This document shows, piece by piece, positions 5,441-40,913 of a stretch of 40,913 nucleotides of DNA; position 1 is the stretch's first letter; each line of letters starts with the position of its first letter. The notes below the pieces were generated by a model. The model was not told the origin of the DNA. It ran no database searches and saw only the letters and a program-made list of their open reading frames with translations. Source of the stretch: Bacteroidota bacterium (GTDB lineage: Bacteria > Bacteroidota > Rhodothermia > Rhodothermales > Bin80); NCBI GenBank assembly GCA_028875125.1, contig JAPPGC010000024.1, positions 1 to 40,913 on the forward strand, in the 5' to 3' direction. The translations under genes and the position numbers were made by a program.

Positions 5441-6895
5441 TTACAGCCACGAACCGGTGTGCCCGCCTATATGGAGTTGAACAGTTTTGAGCTCTGTAAA
5501 TTCGTCAGTAGAAAACCGTCCTAGCTCACGCCCCAGCCCACTGTCCCCGTAGCCACCAAAGGGAAGTTCGGGATACCCGTCCATGAAACAGTTGATCCAT
5601 ATGGTGCCTGCGCGGATATTGCGGCTAACCTCAAAGGCGGTATCAACATTGGCGGTCCACAAGCCGGCGCTGAGCCCATAGAGAGTATCGTTAGCGATCT
5701 GTATGGTTTCCTCTTTTGTTTTGAACGTCAATATTGACAGTACCGGTCCAAATATTTCTTCCCGTGCGATAGCCATCTCTGGAGTCACTCCGTCAAATAC
5801 AGTAGGTTCAAAAAATCGTCCGGTGGGGGTTGGGATACTGTGTCCACCTAGGCGCAGCCGCGAACCGCACGTTGTGCCGTTACTCACATAGCGTTTGATC
5901 TTCTCCAGTTGAGGAATATTGATGATGGCCCCAACCTTGGTGGCAGGGTCAAGGGGATCGCCAACGGGTATGGTACGTGCCAATTCAATCACACGTTCGG
6001 TGAATTCCTGGGCGATACGCTCGTCCAGCAGCAGTCGACTGCCGCTGTTGCAACACTCTCCCATGTTGAAGTAGACGCCAAACACGACTGGATCCAATGC
6101 AGCATCCAGGTCTGCGTCCGCGAATATGATATGGGGGTTCTTCCCTCCGAGCTCAAGAGAACAGCGTTTTAGGTTCCTGCCCGCCGCGGCAGCCACCTGG
6201 CGCCCCACGGCAGTTGATCCAGTGAATGAGATTACGTCAACGTCAGGGTGCTCGGACAAGCGACTTCCTACTGATGCACCAAGGCCGGTTACGACATTGA
6301 TCACACCTTTGGGTACGCCGGCGTCATGCGCCAATCCGGCCAATTGCAGCGTGGTGCCTGGCGTCAATTCGCTGGGTTTGATCACGGCGGTACAGCCGAC
6401 AGACAACGCGAATGGCAATTTCTGACTGATGATGAGCAGCGGAAAATTCCACGGAGTAATCATGCCTACCACCCCCGCAGGTTCGCGCAGTACTAGTCCG
6501 AGTTTATTTTCGCCAAGGCTGTTGTAAGCTTCGCCACAAGTGTGGCGGGCGAGCGTCGCTGCATAGCGCCACAGATCAGCCGCGGCATTCATTTCTGCTT
6601 TGGCCTGCGTAATAGGTTTTCCACTCTCAAGCGTTTCCAGTCTGGCTAGATCATCGTTATGTGTATCAATCAGGTCCGCCGTAGCATTCAGAATGCTTGC
6701 ACGTTCCTGTCCAGACATACGGGGCCATGGTCCGGCATCAAAGGCGACGCGTGCCGCGCGCACCGCCCTATCAATGTCCGAGGCAGTCCCGAGTGCGTAG
6801 TCCCCGACGGTAGCATCGTGTGCAGGGCTCACGGTTGTGAACCGATCTCCAGTCTCTGAACGAGTGTTTGTGCCTCCTATCCAGTGATGCACCAT
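5441..6895 (-). CDS. NAD(P)-dependent aldehyde dehydrogenase, betaine-aldehyde-dehydrogenase-like
   Basis: This 484-aa protein has the full ALDH superfamily layout. The coenzyme site carries TPWNFP (Asn150, oxyanion), the general base is E248 in LELGGKNP, and the nucleophile is C282 in GECCNSGSR. The C-terminal ...PFGGYGDSGLGRELG segment is the usual oligomerisation and coenzyme region. The closest named family is betaine or gamma-aminobutyraldehyde dehydrogenase, but specificity in this group is loose. Its ATG overlaps the TAA of the choline-dehydrogenase-like gene (TAATG), so the two enzymes are coupled and plausibly work in series: alcohol to aldehyde to carboxylate. A strict choline-to-betaine role is possible, but the neighbouring CoA-transferase and sugar-type importer make another alcohol more likely. 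Confidence 0.92.
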   Translation of the reverse strand: MVHHWIGGTNTRSETGDRFTTVSPAHDATVGDYALGTASDIDRAVRAARVAFDAGPWPRMSGQERASILNATADLIDTHNDDLARLETLESGKPITQAKAEMNAAADLWRYAATLARHTCGEAYNSLGENKLGLVLREPAGVVGMITPWNFPLLIISQKLPFALSVGCTAVIKPSELTPGTTLQLAGLAHDAGVPKGVINVVTGLGASVGSRLSEHPDVDVISFTGSTAVGRQVAAAAGRNLKRCSLELGGKNPHIIFADADLDAALDPVVFGVYFNMGECCNSGSRLLLDERIAQEFTERVIELARTIPVGDPLDPATKVGAIINIPQLEKIKRYVSNGTTCGSRLRLGGHSIPTPTGRFFEPTVFDGVTPEMAIAREEIFGPVLSILTFKTKEETIQIANDTLYGLSAGLWTANVDTAFEVSRNIRAGTIWINCFMDGYPELPFGGYGDSGLGRELGRFSTDEFTELKTVQLHIGGHTGSWL

Positions 6896-8484
6896 TAGAT
6901 TGGCTCTCTGATCATGGCAGCTCCCTTTTCACCAATCATGATGGAAGTTGCCTGTGTATTTCCGCTGATGAGGCGGGGCATGATGGAGGCGTCAATAACA
7001 CGAAGTGCCTCAATCCCCCGTACACGAAGCTGTGTGTCTACTACGGCCTCGTTGTCGGTCCCCATCTTGCAGGACCCTACAGGATGATAATCATTTTTAG
7101 CCCATTTTCGGATATATGCCCCAATTTCTTCCTCGCTCTGCGCTTCTGGTCCAGGCAAGATCTCCTCATCAATGTATTGACGGAAAGAAGGCGCACCCAA
7201 TATGCGCCGTCCCCATTTAAATCCTTCCATGGATACCTTGAGATCATTGGTGTCATCCAGGAAATTGGGATCAATTGCGGGATCATCAAACGGATCACTG
7301 CTGCGCAGTGTAATAGATCCAATGCTGCGCGGACGCAGATTACAGGTATTGATGGTTAAGCCGTGCCCCTTGATGGTCATGCGGCCATGGTCTACCACAT
7401 ATGCGGGCAGGCAGTGAATCTGTATATCGGGGGATCGGACTTCCGGGGAGCTTTTGAGGAAACAGCCAGCTTCACATACCGAGGCGGTCACTGGTCCGGT
7501 CTTGTACAGCAGATATTGAATACCATGCAAGATTGCCCTATTCCAGCGGTCGTGTTCGTTATAGCTGATGGGCTTACTTGAAGATGCAGCCAGGTACACA
7601 TCCATGTGATCCTGGAAATTTCTGCCAACACCCGGCAGGTCATGTTCTACGGTAATCCCAAGCGCTTTCAATTCATCTGCAGGCCCGATCCCTGACAACA
7701 ACAGAATCTTTGGAGAGTTGACCGCTCCGCCGCTGAGAATTACCTCCTGTTCCGCATTAGCCTGGACGCGTTTGCCGTTCTGAATGTACTCAATTCCCGT
7801 GGCATGCCCGTTTTCAAGCAGCACGCGTGTTGCAATTGCCCGGGTTTGAATGGTAAGATTCGGTTTGGGCGGGCGCAGAAACGCGGTCGCTGCACTTTCC
7901 CGGCGCACGTTTCGCTGTGTTACCTGGTAATAGCTCACGCCTGACTGGCGAGCGCCGTTCAAGTCAGGGTTATAGGGGATACCTACCTCCTGTGCTGATC
8001 TGACGAACGCGCGAGTAAGAAGATTTGATTGAACCTGATCTGCAATATTTAGTGGACCACCTCGTCCGTGATATTCGTCCACAAAACGCTCGTTGTTTTC
8101 TGACTTCTTGAAATATGGAAGTACATCTGTGTACCCCCAGCCGTCGCAGCCCAACTCACGCCACTCTTCGTAGTCCAGGCGATGCCCCCGGATGTAGATC
8201 ATAGCGTTAATCGATGTACTGCCCCCCAGCGTACGTCCCTGAGGATAGTGCATTTCACGGTTGTTCAGACGTTTCTGGGGTACTGTCTTGAAGCACCAGT
8301 TTACATTTTTGCCGGTCAGCTTGGTGAAACCCGCCGGCATGTGGATCAATGGAGACCGATCGGAGGGGCCGGCTTCAAGTAGCAGTACCCGAGTATGTTG
8401 ATCTTCGGCAAGACGGTGCGCTACGACACACCCTGCGGCACCCGCCCCAACAATTACATAGTCAAACGCACGCTGATGTAGCAT
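6895..8484 (-). CDS. Choline-dehydrogenase-like GMC oxidoreductase
   Basis: The start is the ATG at 8484, giving 529 aa. It begins MLHQRAFDYVIVGAGAAGC, placing the FAD-binding GxGxxG motif at the normal distance, and is preceded by AAGGAAG about 8 nt upstream. A longer frame reaching 8664 would overlap the enoyl-CoA hydratase gene by about 180 nt and is rejected. GMC signature 1 is seen at GRTLGGSTSINAMIYIRG and signature 2 at GAVNSPKILLLSGIGP. The catalytic pair is His in DYHPVGSCKMG and Asn in SGNTQATSIMIGEK. The family oxidises primary alcohols such as choline, alkanols or polyethylene glycols and passes electrons to quinone. It is coupled to the aldehyde dehydrogenase gene downstream by a 1-nt overlap. 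Confidence 0.9.
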   Translation of the reverse strand: MLHQRAFDYVIVGAGAAGCVVAHRLAEDQHTRVLLLEAGPSDRSPLIHMPAGFTKLTGKNVNWCFKTVPQKRLNNREMHYPQGRTLGGSTSINAMIYIRGHRLDYEEWRELGCDGWGYTDVLPYFKKSENNERFVDEYHGRGGPLNIADQVQSNLLTRAFVRSAQEVGIPYNPDLNGARQSGVSYYQVTQRNVRRESAATAFLRPPKPNLTIQTRAIATRVLLENGHATGIEYIQNGKRVQANAEQEVILSGGAVNSPKILLLSGIGPADELKALGITVEHDLPGVGRNFQDHMDVYLAASSSKPISYNEHDRWNRAILHGIQYLLYKTGPVTASVCEAGCFLKSSPEVRSPDIQIHCLPAYVVDHGRMTIKGHGLTINTCNLRPRSIGSITLRSSDPFDDPAIDPNFLDDTNDLKVSMEGFKWGRRILGAPSFRQYIDEEILPGPEAQSEEEIGAYIRKWAKNDYHPVGSCKMGTDNEAVVDTQLRVRGIEALRVIDASIMPRLISGNTQATSIMIGEKGAAMIREPI

Positions 8485-37204: not shown

Positions 37205-38066
37205 CCCGAAGCGACATCATTACATCCAACAGTCTATTCTAGAGCACTTTTTGCCAGACGGTGAAGTATTGTTCTATTGTTATAATAAGCTGAAAAACAG
37301 GACACATCCCAGTACTCCAAGGGATATGTTTTTCGAATATGAATTAAACACTGATACGAACTGGCTTGGAGAAAATTCAAAATCTATGGAGTTTGAATTG
37401 GGACACTTTGAATCAGAAATATGCAATTTGGTAGAACGTCTTGTGGAGAGAGCGCGAGAAGGGCGTTTTTTCTTAAATCCCGAAGAAAAAGAGCTTTGGA
37501 CAAAATTTTTATTTGTTCAATTTGCCCGACATCCTGAGCGACTTGAAGGACTAAGACGAACTCTAAAGGATGTAGTAAAATCCTTACCCAGAGTCAGACC
37601 AGATGGGGTGCTAATTAATCCGACTGTAAGACAATACTATCAGAACCCTGAAAACCCCGAAAACCAAGATGTTTTAAGGAAGGTTTTTTTGTCTCTTATT
37701 TTTGATCATGCTGCTTACGCTCGATTTAAGCCTATCTTTGATAGCAAAGAAGTTTATGCGATCATCATAGACATTCCAGAGAAGAGTTTTGTCTTAGGAA
37801 ACAAGTCTATCACACGTTGGCCAAAGGGCAACTCTGATTTAAGGGGTCCAAACACTCGTCTATTTTTCCCTGTCAGACCGGATGTTATCATTGCTTGGGG
37901 TGATACAACGGCAAAACACAAAGTAGACATGGTAAATCGTGAAGGAATCCGGACTATCAACGAACTCACGTTATTTCAAAGTGAGTGTATTGTGGGACGA
38001 AATAAAGCACTTATTGAATCTTTGGCACTGCGGATGAAAAGATGCCAACGATCTCACCCAAGTTGA
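37197..38066 (+). CDS. DUF4238-domain protein
   Basis: This 289-aa protein has the DUF4238 hallmark at its start: PKRHHYIQQSILEHFLPDGE with FYCYNKLKNRTH, then a helical ETE-like region (FELGHFESEICNLVERLVER), FLFVQFARHPERLEGL and a C-terminal strand set with FVLGNKSITRWPKGNSDL and RLFFPVRPDVIIAWG. DUF4238 proteins are scattered among bacteria and often sit on mobile DNA; their biochemical role is unknown to me. The coding sequence is visibly more AT-rich than the conserved genes to its left, consistent with transfer. It is coupled to the small upstream ORF, and its stop codon lies inside a long imperfect palindrome. Confidence 0.85.
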   Translation: MSDPKRHHYIQQSILEHFLPDGEVLFYCYNKLKNRTHPSTPRDMFFEYELNTDTNWLGENSKSMEFELGHFESEICNLVERLVERAREGRFFLNPEEKELWTKFLFVQFARHPERLEGLRRTLKDVVKSLPRVRPDGVLINPTVRQYYQNPENPENQDVLRKVFLSLIFDHAAYARFKPIFDSKEVYAIIIDIPEKSFVLGNKSITRWPKGNSDLRGPNTRLFFPVRPDVIIAWGDTTAKHKVDMVNREGIRTINELTLFQSECIVGRNKALIESLALRMKRCQRSHPS

Positions 38067-38178
38067 ACGTACGCCGTGGAAAGGCACTGTCCTGCGGCGG
38101 GTGCGAACCCCGTCCAACACTTATCGCTTCGGTTAGTAGCGGCCTCAGCACCTTTTCATGGCGTACGTTCACCTTGGG
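38057..38178. repeat. 122-bp imperfect palindrome with two internal hairpins
   Basis: The left arm (38057-38089) and right arm (38146-38178) are 33 nt each and pair with 28 Watson-Crick pairs, two G-T pairs and three mismatches; the outer parts read CCCAAGTTGAACGTACGCC and GGCGTACGTTCACCTTGGG. The 56-nt loop holds two further hairpins: GGGT-GCGA-ACCC (38099-38110) and CGCT...AGCG (38125-38141). The left arm contains the TGA stop of DUF4238. The size, the paired AAC/GTT near the arm ends and the position at a gene end recall an integron attC site, but the RYYYAAC/GTTRRRY core is not met. It could instead be a MITE-like element, a structured RNA or a terminator. Confidence 0.75.
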
Positions 38179-38374
38179 TTAGCACAATCGCAATCGTCCC
38201 ACCCCATTTCACGCCAAGGAACGGGAATCGAAATGCGTCTCTTTTTAACGCCACTATTCGCACTGATGTGAAGTCGTCCCTGTAAGAACCACTGTCTTGC
38301 CCGCAATAAAGCCCAAATTGTGGAATCATTAACGCACACGCCAAATTATTACTTTCTGGGGCTTACTTTTGATC
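38067..38374. other. Convergent gap between DUF4238 and the sacsin-like gene
   Basis: Apart from the palindrome (38057-38178), I see no gene in this 308-nt stretch. Short frames here are incoherent on both strands. The two flanking genes converge, so a transcription end for both may lie here, but there is no classical GC-hairpin plus T-run. Confidence 0.5.
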
Positions 38375-39547
38375 TCATTCCTGCTCCTCAAGTATGGTCC
38401 TGATATCCTGAAAGTGGGTCTCGACAAATCGAATGCTTGTATTCAGATCCCCGAGAAGCAGAGGAAGGACACATTCATCCGTGGTCCTAATTACGTGTTT
38501 CAGTTCCACCATAGCCTCTTCGTCAGACTTAACGAATTCTTTGTACATTGCTGAGCACAAAGGACACAAAGCCAAGAATTGTTCTTCATTTTCTCGTGTA
38601 AAATGATCTTTGGTAAGAGCCTCAACAGCTTCGAAATAGTATTCTCCATCACGCTTCCTAAAAGGCATCTCCTCTTTGCATATCTGGCATATCAGCTGTC
38701 CAGCATCATTCGTGTACTGATTCCTGAGCCATGGGGTCGGATCGATTGCACCTCTTGTTGTCCGAACACTTCTGTCCACTTGCTCGTATTTCTTGGTGGA
38801 AGAGTCTTCAAGCTGCTCAGCGAGTTTTATCCGTCTGCGCTCCTGATCAAAAGAGACCCTCTCGGGGAATGCCGGATTCTCCATAACCGCAGCAATGGCC
38901 TCCTTCCATTGCTGAAACTCTGTCGGATGAAGTTTAAGCAGTTCAATATCCTCAGCAGTTACGCCTGTTTCTTCCGCTAGTTTAGCAATAAGATCTAGCT
39001 TCATGCCAAGTTTCTGGGCTAGCTTTTCATCTCTTATGAAGGATTCGGGAAGATCATCGAGCGAGAGTTCCCCCGGTTTCTTCAGGTTTCCGTCTGAAAA
39101 CGGCAGCCAAGTTTTTTCGATCAGCAAATGTCCAAATTCTGATATTCGATCTTCCTTGGTACTGCCCTCATAAGTTTGTCGCGAACACGACTCGACCACA
39201 CCGCGAATACACAAAAAATGTCGAACGGCAATGTTATTCCAGATGAATTCACTTGTCTCAAGCACTGGTGAAGCCAACGCGATTTCTAACCCCTCAACAT
39301 CAATGTATGGATCAAATCCATCAAGACCCCGTTCGTGACAACCATGACGATCCTCCAGAACAACATGCCCTCGCCCGTTTTGTCTCTCCCGTGAAACCCG
39401 TACAGAATCCGCTACCCCAAGTTTCTCAAACAACGTTCTTGAGGATTCAGTGTATTCAGTGTTGACGAATCCAATCGCGTTGTTTCCAGAAAAATACAAG
39501 CGCATTTCATCGCTTCCGAAATAAAGCTCGCATGGTTTCAGGTACAT
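38375..39547 (-). CDS. C-terminal part of an interrupted sacsin-like ATPase-domain protein
   Basis: This 390-aa frame reads on directly from 39554-40913: both are in the same frame, separated only by TAA GAG CCT. It opens MYLKPCELYFGSDEMRLYF, which in relatives I recall lies in the middle of one chain after '...TPFVRA'. The central part (WLPFSDGNLKKPGELSLDDL, MKLDLIAKLAEETGV) is helical. Near the end is a two-part zinc-type cluster, C287-x2-C290 in CQICKEEMPF and C328-x2-C331 in LALCPLCSAMY, then DLNTSIRFVETHFQDI. The family is built of a large N-terminal HSP90/sacsin-type ATPase, which lies outside the window. Without read-through this fragment would need its own start at 39547, where I see no Shine-Dalgarno sequence. 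Confidence 0.7.
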   Translation of the reverse strand: MYLKPCELYFGSDEMRLYFSGNNAIGFVNTEYTESSRTLFEKLGVADSVRVSRERQNGRGHVVLEDRHGCHERGLDGFDPYIDVEGLEIALASPVLETSEFIWNNIAVRHFLCIRGVVESCSRQTYEGSTKEDRISEFGHLLIEKTWLPFSDGNLKKPGELSLDDLPESFIRDEKLAQKLGMKLDLIAKLAEETGVTAEDIELLKLHPTEFQQWKEAIAAVMENPAFPERVSFDQERRRIKLAEQLEDSSTKKYEQVDRSVRTTRGAIDPTPWLRNQYTNDAGQLICQICKEEMPFRKRDGEYYFEAVEALTKDHFTRENEEQFLALCPLCSAMYKEFVKSDEEAMVELKHVIRTTDECVLPLLLGDLNTSIRFVETHFQDIRTILEEQE

Positions 39548-39553
39548 AGGCTC

Positions 39554-40913
39554 TTAGTCATCCTTACTCTCTGCACGCACGAAAGGCGTTTCACATAGCC
39601 GGTCACGGAGACGCCTCTTCTTTTCTTGGGAGTCCGTGCCGTAGGCCTTTTCAATCACAATGATATCGCGTTGGTGCTCCTCGACAGCCACTACTGAATT
39701 GTCGTGGGCATATTTTGGCAGGACGTTCTCAATGACTTCTTCCACGAGATCCAACTCGGGAATACCCAGGTCCCTTAAAAACTGTTGGGGCTCCGTGTCC
39801 TGGCAGAGCTCTGCCTTTACGACGGGCAGGGAAGTCTCAGTGTGATTGCCATCCGACAAGTATGCATTTGGAGATCCATCCTCCCGGAACGGTATAACCT
39901 GTGAACCATCTTGAAGACGAATAATTGGCCTAGAACGTAACGGGCCTGGAGAATTTCCGTGTCCGCTTCCTGTCTGCCAGAGAGCTTTTTGATCACCAAC
40001 ATACCAGTACATTAAAGTCATCCAGTCATCTGGTTGAGCTTTCAAAAACGTCTCTGAGAGCTTTCGGACAAATCCATCTGGTGTGATCTCCTCCACACCA
40101 AGCTCACTCATTAGATACTCTCGCAGGTCCGGCGTTCGATCTTGAGTGATTGTCCCAACCAACCATTTTACCTGACCGCTGGATTGAAATAGAGAGCGGA
40201 GTTGCTCTTGGCCGAGGAGCTTCCTCAGATCGCCACCACGGGCGAGCTTGGCGTCTTTTGCTCCCGCGAAAGTTCCGTCGTCCGCAGGCAGCAATTCATG
40301 CCCAAGAAAGGCAGTGCGGACAGATTCGGCTATGGAAAAAAACATGCTTCCTTTAGGAAAATCGTCCATTCGGATCGGCATTGATTCAAGCAAAGATACG
40401 GTCAGCAATCCCATTGTTCGTAGATTTATCAACGTATCCACGATCAAGCTGGCGGTCTCCTCAATAAGGTTTGTATTCCAAGCGTCATCCTTGGGAATAT
40501 TGTCTCTGGAAGGTGTAGTTCTGTACGGGCCCTGAATGAGAAATCCAAGGCGAGTTGGCTTTTCTGTTGGGAAATACACTGCCAGGGGCGCATCCTTGAT
40601 ACGGGTTATCTGCTCAGTCTTTTCTTTCTTGTCTGTGTCGAACTTAAAGGCCACTTCCACCTTCACATGGGAGTTGCTATTCGGGACGGAAACCGGCTTT
40701 TCAAAGACAAGCCACTTCTCATCCTCATCCTCGCCGTTATTTTGCCCGATCACTTTCACTTGTCTGGCGGGACCGCGGGGGGTCTCTTCACGCAGATATA
40801 CGCCACTTGATTCGTCGGGGAGCTTGTATTCGATCTCCTCGATTTTTCGAAGAAACAGAAGGGAATTATAAGGAAAACTTGACAAATTGAAAAATATACC
40901 GTATTTTAGGAGT
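39554..40913 (-). CDS. Sacsin-like (HSP90-type ATPase) large protein, partial at the right edge
   Basis: The frame stays open to the window end (upstream codons read LLKYGIFFNLSSFPYN), so the apparent start at 40885, a TTG, is internal and the gene begins outside. The visible part corresponds to the region just after the GHKL/HSP90 ATPase domain of sacsin-like bacterial proteins: YNSLLFLRKIEEIEYKL, LGFLIQGPYRTTPSRDNIPK, LTVSLLESMPIRMDDFPKGS, ELLPADDGTFAGAKDAKLAR and PIIRLQDGSQVIPFREDGSP. It ends with RAESKDD at TAA (39554-39556). These large proteins often occur in bacterial defence islands; their mechanism is not established. Confidence 0.75.
   Translation of the reverse strand, partial: LLKYGIFFNLSSFPYNSLLFLRKIEEIEYKLPDESSGVYLREETPRGPARQVKVIGQNNGEDEDEKWLVFEKPVSVPNSNSHVKVEVAFKFDTDKKEKTEQITRIKDAPLAVYFPTEKPTRLGFLIQGPYRTTPSRDNIPKDDAWNTNLIEETASLIVDTLINLRTMGLLTVSLLESMPIRMDDFPKGSMFFSIAESVRTAFLGHELLPADDGTFAGAKDAKLARGGDLRKLLGQEQLRSLFQSSGQVKWLVGTITQDRTPDLREYLMSELGVEEITPDGFVRKLSETFLKAQPDDWMTLMYWYVGDQKALWQTGSGHGNSPGPLRSRPIIRLQDGSQVIPFREDGSPNAYLSDGNHTETSLPVVKAELCQDTEPQQFLRDLGIPELDLVEEVIENVLPKYAHDNSVVAVEEHQRDIIVIEKAYGTDSQEKKRRLRDRLCETPFVRAESKDD

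Follow-up and report, generated by a model that had tools for sequence, protein, structure and literature searches.

A sacsin-like ATPase gene broken by a stop codon and, apparently, by an insertion sequence: a probably decayed member of a probably transferred defence island in a Bin80 genome

The window analysed here, a stretch of DNA of 40,913 nucleotides from a Bacteroidota bacterium of the Bin80 lineage, is the whole of contig C32 in a 3.3-Mb draft genome of 129 contigs, its end being the contig end. At that end lies part of a sacsin-like ATPase gene, which is very probably a recently decayed defence-type gene of a probably acquired island, carrying two lesions, an in-frame TAA and an insertion sequence. 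Set against its intact closest relative, the gene bears disabling lesions (the TAA and the insertion) of the kind by which a pseudogene is recognised. As a pseudogene it is ordinary, and the intact family is of greater interest. For the intact gene we put forward a tentative reading, to which we give somewhat less than an even chance: it would be half of an undescribed two-gene module, composed of a strongly conserved SNF2 helicase, in many loci carrying a HEPN domain, and one or two partners which have a common, probably nuclease-dead HNH-like docking tag and interchangeable sensor/effector middles.

On the minus strand the gene appears as two frames in the same phase, 40912-39554, open at the window edge, and 39547-38375, with nothing but TAA GAG CCT between them, as the preliminary description had reported. 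The translation carried across the stop, with X at the TAA (P0001), has 845 residues and one stop only. Both parts can be compared with the closest relative, an intact gene of 1011 aa in a Candidatus Dadabacteria MAG (locus L038; 86% amino acid identity). The middle part of the gene, 5' of the TAA (39557-40858, minus strand, 434 codons), matches TmtA models and has 433 codons aligned to L038 at 88.9% amino acid identity, and the C-terminal part, 3' of the TAA (38375-39553, minus strand, 392 codons and its own stop), has 390 codons aligned at 85.1%. The TAA itself (39554-39556, minus strand) stands opposite residue 619 of the 1011 in L038, within the variable middle region and without any gap, and the downstream frame begins with an ATG 6 nt past it. 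The Pfam matches of the C-terminal part (YdjO, ANAPC5, TniQ, Tannase) are weak and all under their cut-offs. The gene had been taken to span 38375-40913, which holds up to the insertion site and fails beyond it: the first 17 codons and part of the 18th of the upper frame are insertion-sequence bases (40861-40913) and do not belong to the gene. The ATPase domain from which the gene has its name lies outside the window, on contig C76.

For P0001 we collected relatives at 22 loci in named genomes by a scan with six query peptides, which makes this a biased sample. A single uninterrupted frame was found in 17 of the 22, that of L042 reaching its contig edge. The position of the TAA is covered in all but L044, and none of the 21 covering relatives has a stop there; frames ending at the equivalent of 39554, which the preliminary description had named as telling against its reading, were likewise sought and found in 0 of 21. 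Since both window halves are colinear with one frame of L038 and the alignment is gapless across the junction, the in-phase arrangement is not due to chance, and the two frames are, on this alignment, parts of one chain, as had been suspected from the junction. Five relatives are broken or cut at other places: L026 and L037 have frame changes, L030 has a stop close to its C-terminus, L034 has one close to its contig start, and L044 is truncated at the 5' side behind another long frame.

The larger lesion, missed in the preliminary description, is an insertion sequence at the window edge. The bases 40861-40913 are one end of a multi-copy element with a 24-bp terminal repeat at 40861-40884. Identical copies of the final 53-55 bases of the window stand at the ends of C48, C67 and C102, the C67 copy lacking the counterpart of the last window base, and the 24-base repeat followed by a different inward sequence was found close to the ends of C43, C76, C126 and C129. 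Eight contig ends of the genome thus carry the terminal repeat, and they may be read as the left and right ends, four of each, of one multi-copy element. Contig C76 begins with the right end and continues with a minus-strand ATPase N-terminus of 186 residues, which carries the sacsin/GHKL domain and is 89.8% identical to residues 1-186 of L038. Next to the element, the 8-bp sequence TTCTGTTT occurs on C32 (40853-40860, minus strand) and again on C76, and it is single at the corresponding site in L038. By blastn, moreover, L038 runs unbroken from 53-10098 of C76 into 38176-40863 of the window. From the duplication at both flanks, single in L038, together with the colinearity, we infer that C32 and C76, which no contig joins, are the two sides of one insertion and hold one interrupted gene. 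A second copy of the element has an 8-bp duplication of its own, ATAAATAA, on C48/C43, and the flanks of the remaining four ends gave no pairable duplication. On C67 and C126 (L009 and L018), the 15 bases flanking the element are exact reverse complements of each other, with no direct duplication.

Regarding its family, a related terminal repeat was found in genome G029, identical at 22 of 24 bases (L050:858-881) and located 55 bases before an IS1595 transposase gene (L050:937-1893; PF12762, E 1.5e-37). Elements of the IS1595 family make 8-bp target duplications. The element that cuts the sacsin-like gene is like them in its related repeat beside such a transposase and in its 8-bp duplication, and it differs in that no transposase of its own was found in the stretches examined; its assignment to IS1595 is probable. 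At the element end, an outward promoter-like pair (TTTTCA, 17, TATAAT) is seen on the minus strand at 40865-40893, directed toward the broken gene. The promoter scan gave two promoter-like sites, shuffled sequences giving 1.6 on average, and the pair at the element end did not exceed the shuffles.

Upstream of the sacsin-like gene, C76 carries a 1199-aa HEPN_Swt1-SNF2 helicase gene, a HARE/Mrr nuclease gene, and then genes for a YgjP peptidase, HsdR, HsdS and HsdM. On the window side the island is preceded by the housekeeping genes for DXP reductoisomerase and SerS and by a DUF4238 gene. The window part of this probably transferred island is 38176-40863, 89.6% identical to L038 in DNA, and it continues on C76; together with 53-10098 of C76 (L048), the block common to L038 amounts to at least 12.7 kb at about 90% DNA identity, and it may extend further, as L038 was compared up to the 10098 side of C76 only. 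The GlyA proteins of the L038 contig and of the Bin80 genome are only 59% identical. Given about 90% for the island against 59% for GlyA, horizontal transfer is the simplest reading, and the defence island has probably moved between distant lineages; alternatively, one of the contigs may be mis-binned. The HsdR gene of C76 is in two frames of 794 and 310 aa, and it is intact with 1035 aa in L038. Relative to L038 it has one-base insertions near 6776 of C76 and right at its beginning (9077), and near 6976 a pair of changes which compensate each other; the split near 6776 may reflect either an additional lesion or an error of the draft. An imperfect inverted repeat with 37-nt arms (38053-38182; arms 84% identical) lies between the DUF4238 gene and the island, and the block common to L038 starts at 38176, inside the second arm of the repeat. 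It has no second copy in the Bin80 genome, and as a canonical attC site it was rejected by inspection only. The whole window gave no Rfam match at the gathering thresholds.

How old the inactivation might be was considered from pairwise comparison with L038. The dN/dS values of the sacsin-like gene are 0.198 for the N part, 0.231 for the middle and 0.311 for the C part, and those of its island neighbours are 0.176 for the helicase, 0.227 for Mrr, 0.080 for YgjP, and 0.157 and 0.133 for the two parts of HsdR. As the values are well under 1 in all parts of the gene, any decay is recent. Among nine outgroups, of which L026 and L030 are broken copies, conservation reaches at least 85% at 327 columns; of these, 11 are changed in the window copy only and 4 in L038 only, a weak excess (one-sided p 0.059); at 178 fully conserved columns the changes are 3 and 3. 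Both kinds of counts are compatible with recent inactivation, and low dN/dS together with so weak an excess means that loss of function is not proven by the sequence alone.

Several other explanations of this arrangement need to be weighed. One may suspect that the TAA is a consensus or assembly error, so that the gene would be broken by the insertion sequence only, or would be broken in some members of the population and not in others. The suspicion is invited by a draft of 129 contigs, where a single substitution suffices for the stop; the HsdR frame lesion might itself be a draft error. Against it, dN/dS is higher in the C part, which follows the TAA, than in the other two parts (0.31), although this is a small contrast, and substitutions would be a rare consensus error if the coverage of C32 is good. 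We consider this explanation unlikely. Much less probable, in our judgement, is that the terminal repeat marks an unrelated assembly breakpoint and that the ATPase domain of C76 comes from another copy of the gene. It is true that C32 and C76 are not joined physically and that the repeat occurs at eight contig ends; however, short element matches at contig ends aside, the search of the genome gave no further homologue of the middle part or of the C part, and the pairing of the two contigs agrees with the 8-bp duplication and with 12.7 kb of colinearity to L038. We give this the least credit of all.

The preliminary description had left three options for the break at the single in-frame stop, namely fresh inactivation, read-through of the stop, and two working proteins, and it is the first of them that fits best. 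A working split protein, made by read-through of the TAA or by restart at the ATG 6 nt downstream, is a highly improbable explanation, even though the long downstream frame begins with that ATG and both halves look constrained. The low dN/dS of the halves would follow from their common history before inactivation. TAA, moreover, is a working though uncommon stop in the Bin80 genome: it ends SerS, one of nine annotated or named frames of the window, and 3 of 15 further long frames, though not one of six island genes examined on C76 (five end in TGA and one in TAG), a point in favour of read-through. It also tells against a working split protein that the ATPase domain and the upstream operon are severed by the element, and that none of the 21 covering relatives has the split, or a two-gene form, at the TAA point. 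Programmed read-through and a two-gene split were rejected on these grounds, and we retain the reading of a recently decayed gene with two lesions.

The intact family can be described from L038 and the other relatives. That the gene is sacsin-like, as had been proposed from the window, is borne out by L038, which scores 68.3 with PF25794 (cut-off 32.8; the piece on C76 scores 65.6) and is also over the cut-off of NF047352. A Pfam search of the L038 protein gave no domain beyond PF25794. L038 matches nine TmtA profiles, with a best E of 4.8e-70, and matches to such profiles were also obtained for the middle part in the window (7.6e-26) and the N part on C76 (3.1e-35). The best model is matched over 33-808 of its 1302 positions only (about 60%), by residues 37-787 out of 1012 in the L038 protein, so L038 does not have the full-length TmtA architecture.

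In 20 of the 22 loci the gene is preceded, on its own strand, by a helicase match upstream, the exceptions being L034 and L044, where upstream parts are missing. The matched stretches of helicase and partner are separated by at most 160 bases in 16 of the 20. The distance is about 0.7 kb in L026, L027 and L028; in L046 it reaches 1.9 kb, with a module-bearing gene standing between. Contig ends truncate the helicases of L030, L032 and L037, and L035 has only the last 98 helicase residues. Among the 16 full-length helicase matches, with L038 counted, 10 include the HEPN part, and the other 6 (L027, L028, L029, L039, L046 and L047) begin at residues 158-180; the HEPN domain is thus, from these matches, not constant in the helicase partner. 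Compared with L038, the helicases at the other loci are 54-93% identical (rows of at least 98 residues; 69% in L045, taking its adjacent copy). The ATPase domains reach 30-76% and the C-terminal modules 49-76%, apart from the first L047 copy at 26.7%. The middle has 22-57% identity or escapes detection. In Desulfobulbus alkaliphilus (L031:5920-12544), the helicase is 93% identical to L038 and the middle of the partner only 43%, which would mean either partner exchange or fast divergence. Tandem pairs of module-bearing genes occur in L046 and in L047. Immediately following the helicase gene of L046, and ahead of a sacsin-like gene, there is a gene for a 619-aa protein (L046:8660-10519), without the sacsin domain and with the same HNH-like module at its end, and in L047 (6418-13402) one helicase is followed by two tandem sacsin-like genes, the module of the first being much diverged. 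Between lineages the middles of the partners differ, and for one partner of L046 this extends to the entire N-terminus.

Beyond these loci, L064 and L065, two loci of one genus found by the module profile, also have the helicase (70-71% identity), as do Rhizobium and Ensifer plasmids (48-49%). On the latter (L060:2667-3197 and L062:2685-3239) a small gene precedes the helicase, where L038 has the fused HEPN. The module-less relatives L066 and L067 do not have this helicase beside them; about 8 kb from the L067 gene there is a distant match to SNF2 (34-37%). In a Proteus plasmid, the neighbourhood of a protein that matches the module at 29% shows no match to the island helicase; an annotated DEAD/DEAH helicase lies about 2.4 kb off on the other strand.

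The C-terminal zinc/HNH-like module, detected in the window at 38387-38884 (minus strand) with profile A1, which was built from 24 module sequences, matches EcoKMcrA (6ghc) with an E of 1.3e-5 across its HNH region. Its predicted structure has a mean pLDDT of 80.3, and a Foldseek search with it again gave 6ghc as best match (E 2e-3), with none at or below 0.001. Structural alignment by VIA-align was middling, with a Z of 6.0 for TagI (rmsd 3.7, 97 residues aligned) and 5.8 for 6ghc (rmsd 3.8, 94 aligned). Three cysteine columns of the module are invariant and a fourth is conserved in at least 90%. The aligned paired histidines (HH) of 6ghc, which we take to be its catalytic HNH histidines, are replaced, and the module thus falls outside the McrA-type HNH definition; because of this replacement, nuclease activity of the module is unlikely. 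A search of 50,697 phage records with the L038 version of the module gave no match, one of 72,556 plasmid records gave 6 at E 1e-5, and profile A1 matched 3 of 394 genomes of the phylum at E 1e-8, the Bin80 genome itself included.

Taken together, these observations suggest how the gene may have worked and how it was probably lost. An island of type I R-M, YgjP, HARE/Mrr and HEPN-SNF2 genes would have had the GHKL/sacsin ATPase of about 1011 aa as its last gene. One lesion is then the TAA at residue 619 and the other the insertion at about residue 186, which parts the ATPase domain from the rest and left the 8-bp duplication. The broken gene presumably yields no functional protein, and the pair would be reduced to the helicase alone in the Bin80 genome. 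The intact protein and the adjacent helicase may act on foreign DNA, which the pair would sense and along which the helicase would translocate; the GHKL ATPase may serve as a switch, the variable middle as the specificity part, and the HNH-like module, probably inactive as a nuclease, may dock on DNA or on the helicase.

As to its meaning, the window is a clear example of how a defence island, probably a transferred one, decays through two lesions in one gene, and it cautions that the edge of a draft-genome window can conceal a transposon. Broken or cut copies in 5 of 22 relatives would suit a costly or conditionally useful gene, some of them being perhaps due to draft errors and contig ends. 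If the helicase, the variable ATPase and the HNH-like tag form one system, Tiamat-like ATPases would be joined to restriction-type helicases, and the tag would be a testable docking module. No description of the combination of helicase, sacsin-like protein and HNH-like module was found in the literature searched, mostly outside subscription journals, nor in the accessible parts of PMC12629846, PMC3710099, PMC12839542 and PMC10853773.

Parts of the proposed system resemble known ones. Fusions of HEPN domains to SWI2/SNF2 ATPases, and HEPN domains within R-M operons, are tabulated in the accessible part of Anantharaman et al. 2013 (PMC3710099), which names no sacsin-like or HNH-like partner for such fusions. 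These fusions being already in print, together with the 6 of 16 helicases without a HEPN match, weakens the two-gene-module reading. DrmD of DISARM is the best PADLOC match of the C76 helicase (E 5e-111); unlike DrmD, the helicase here stays below the curated cut-off (L038 helicase against NF038317: 307.6 bits, NCBIfam equivalog cut-off 610) and has an N-terminal Swt1-like HEPN domain. The module is like the HNH domains of EcoKMcrA and TagI in its profile, its fold match and its kept cysteines, but lacks the paired histidines of 6ghc. With the sacsin-type GHKL ATPases (PF25794, NF047352), the likeness is an N-terminal domain over both curated cut-offs in L038, and the difference is that the protein here is bacterial and belongs to a defence island. 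Tiamat (TmtA) is a single-gene anti-phage ATPase, with which L038 has in common the GHKL/sacsin N-terminus and the profile matches, whereas the L038 family ends in an HNH-like module and has, in 20 of 22 loci, a helicase gene upstream.
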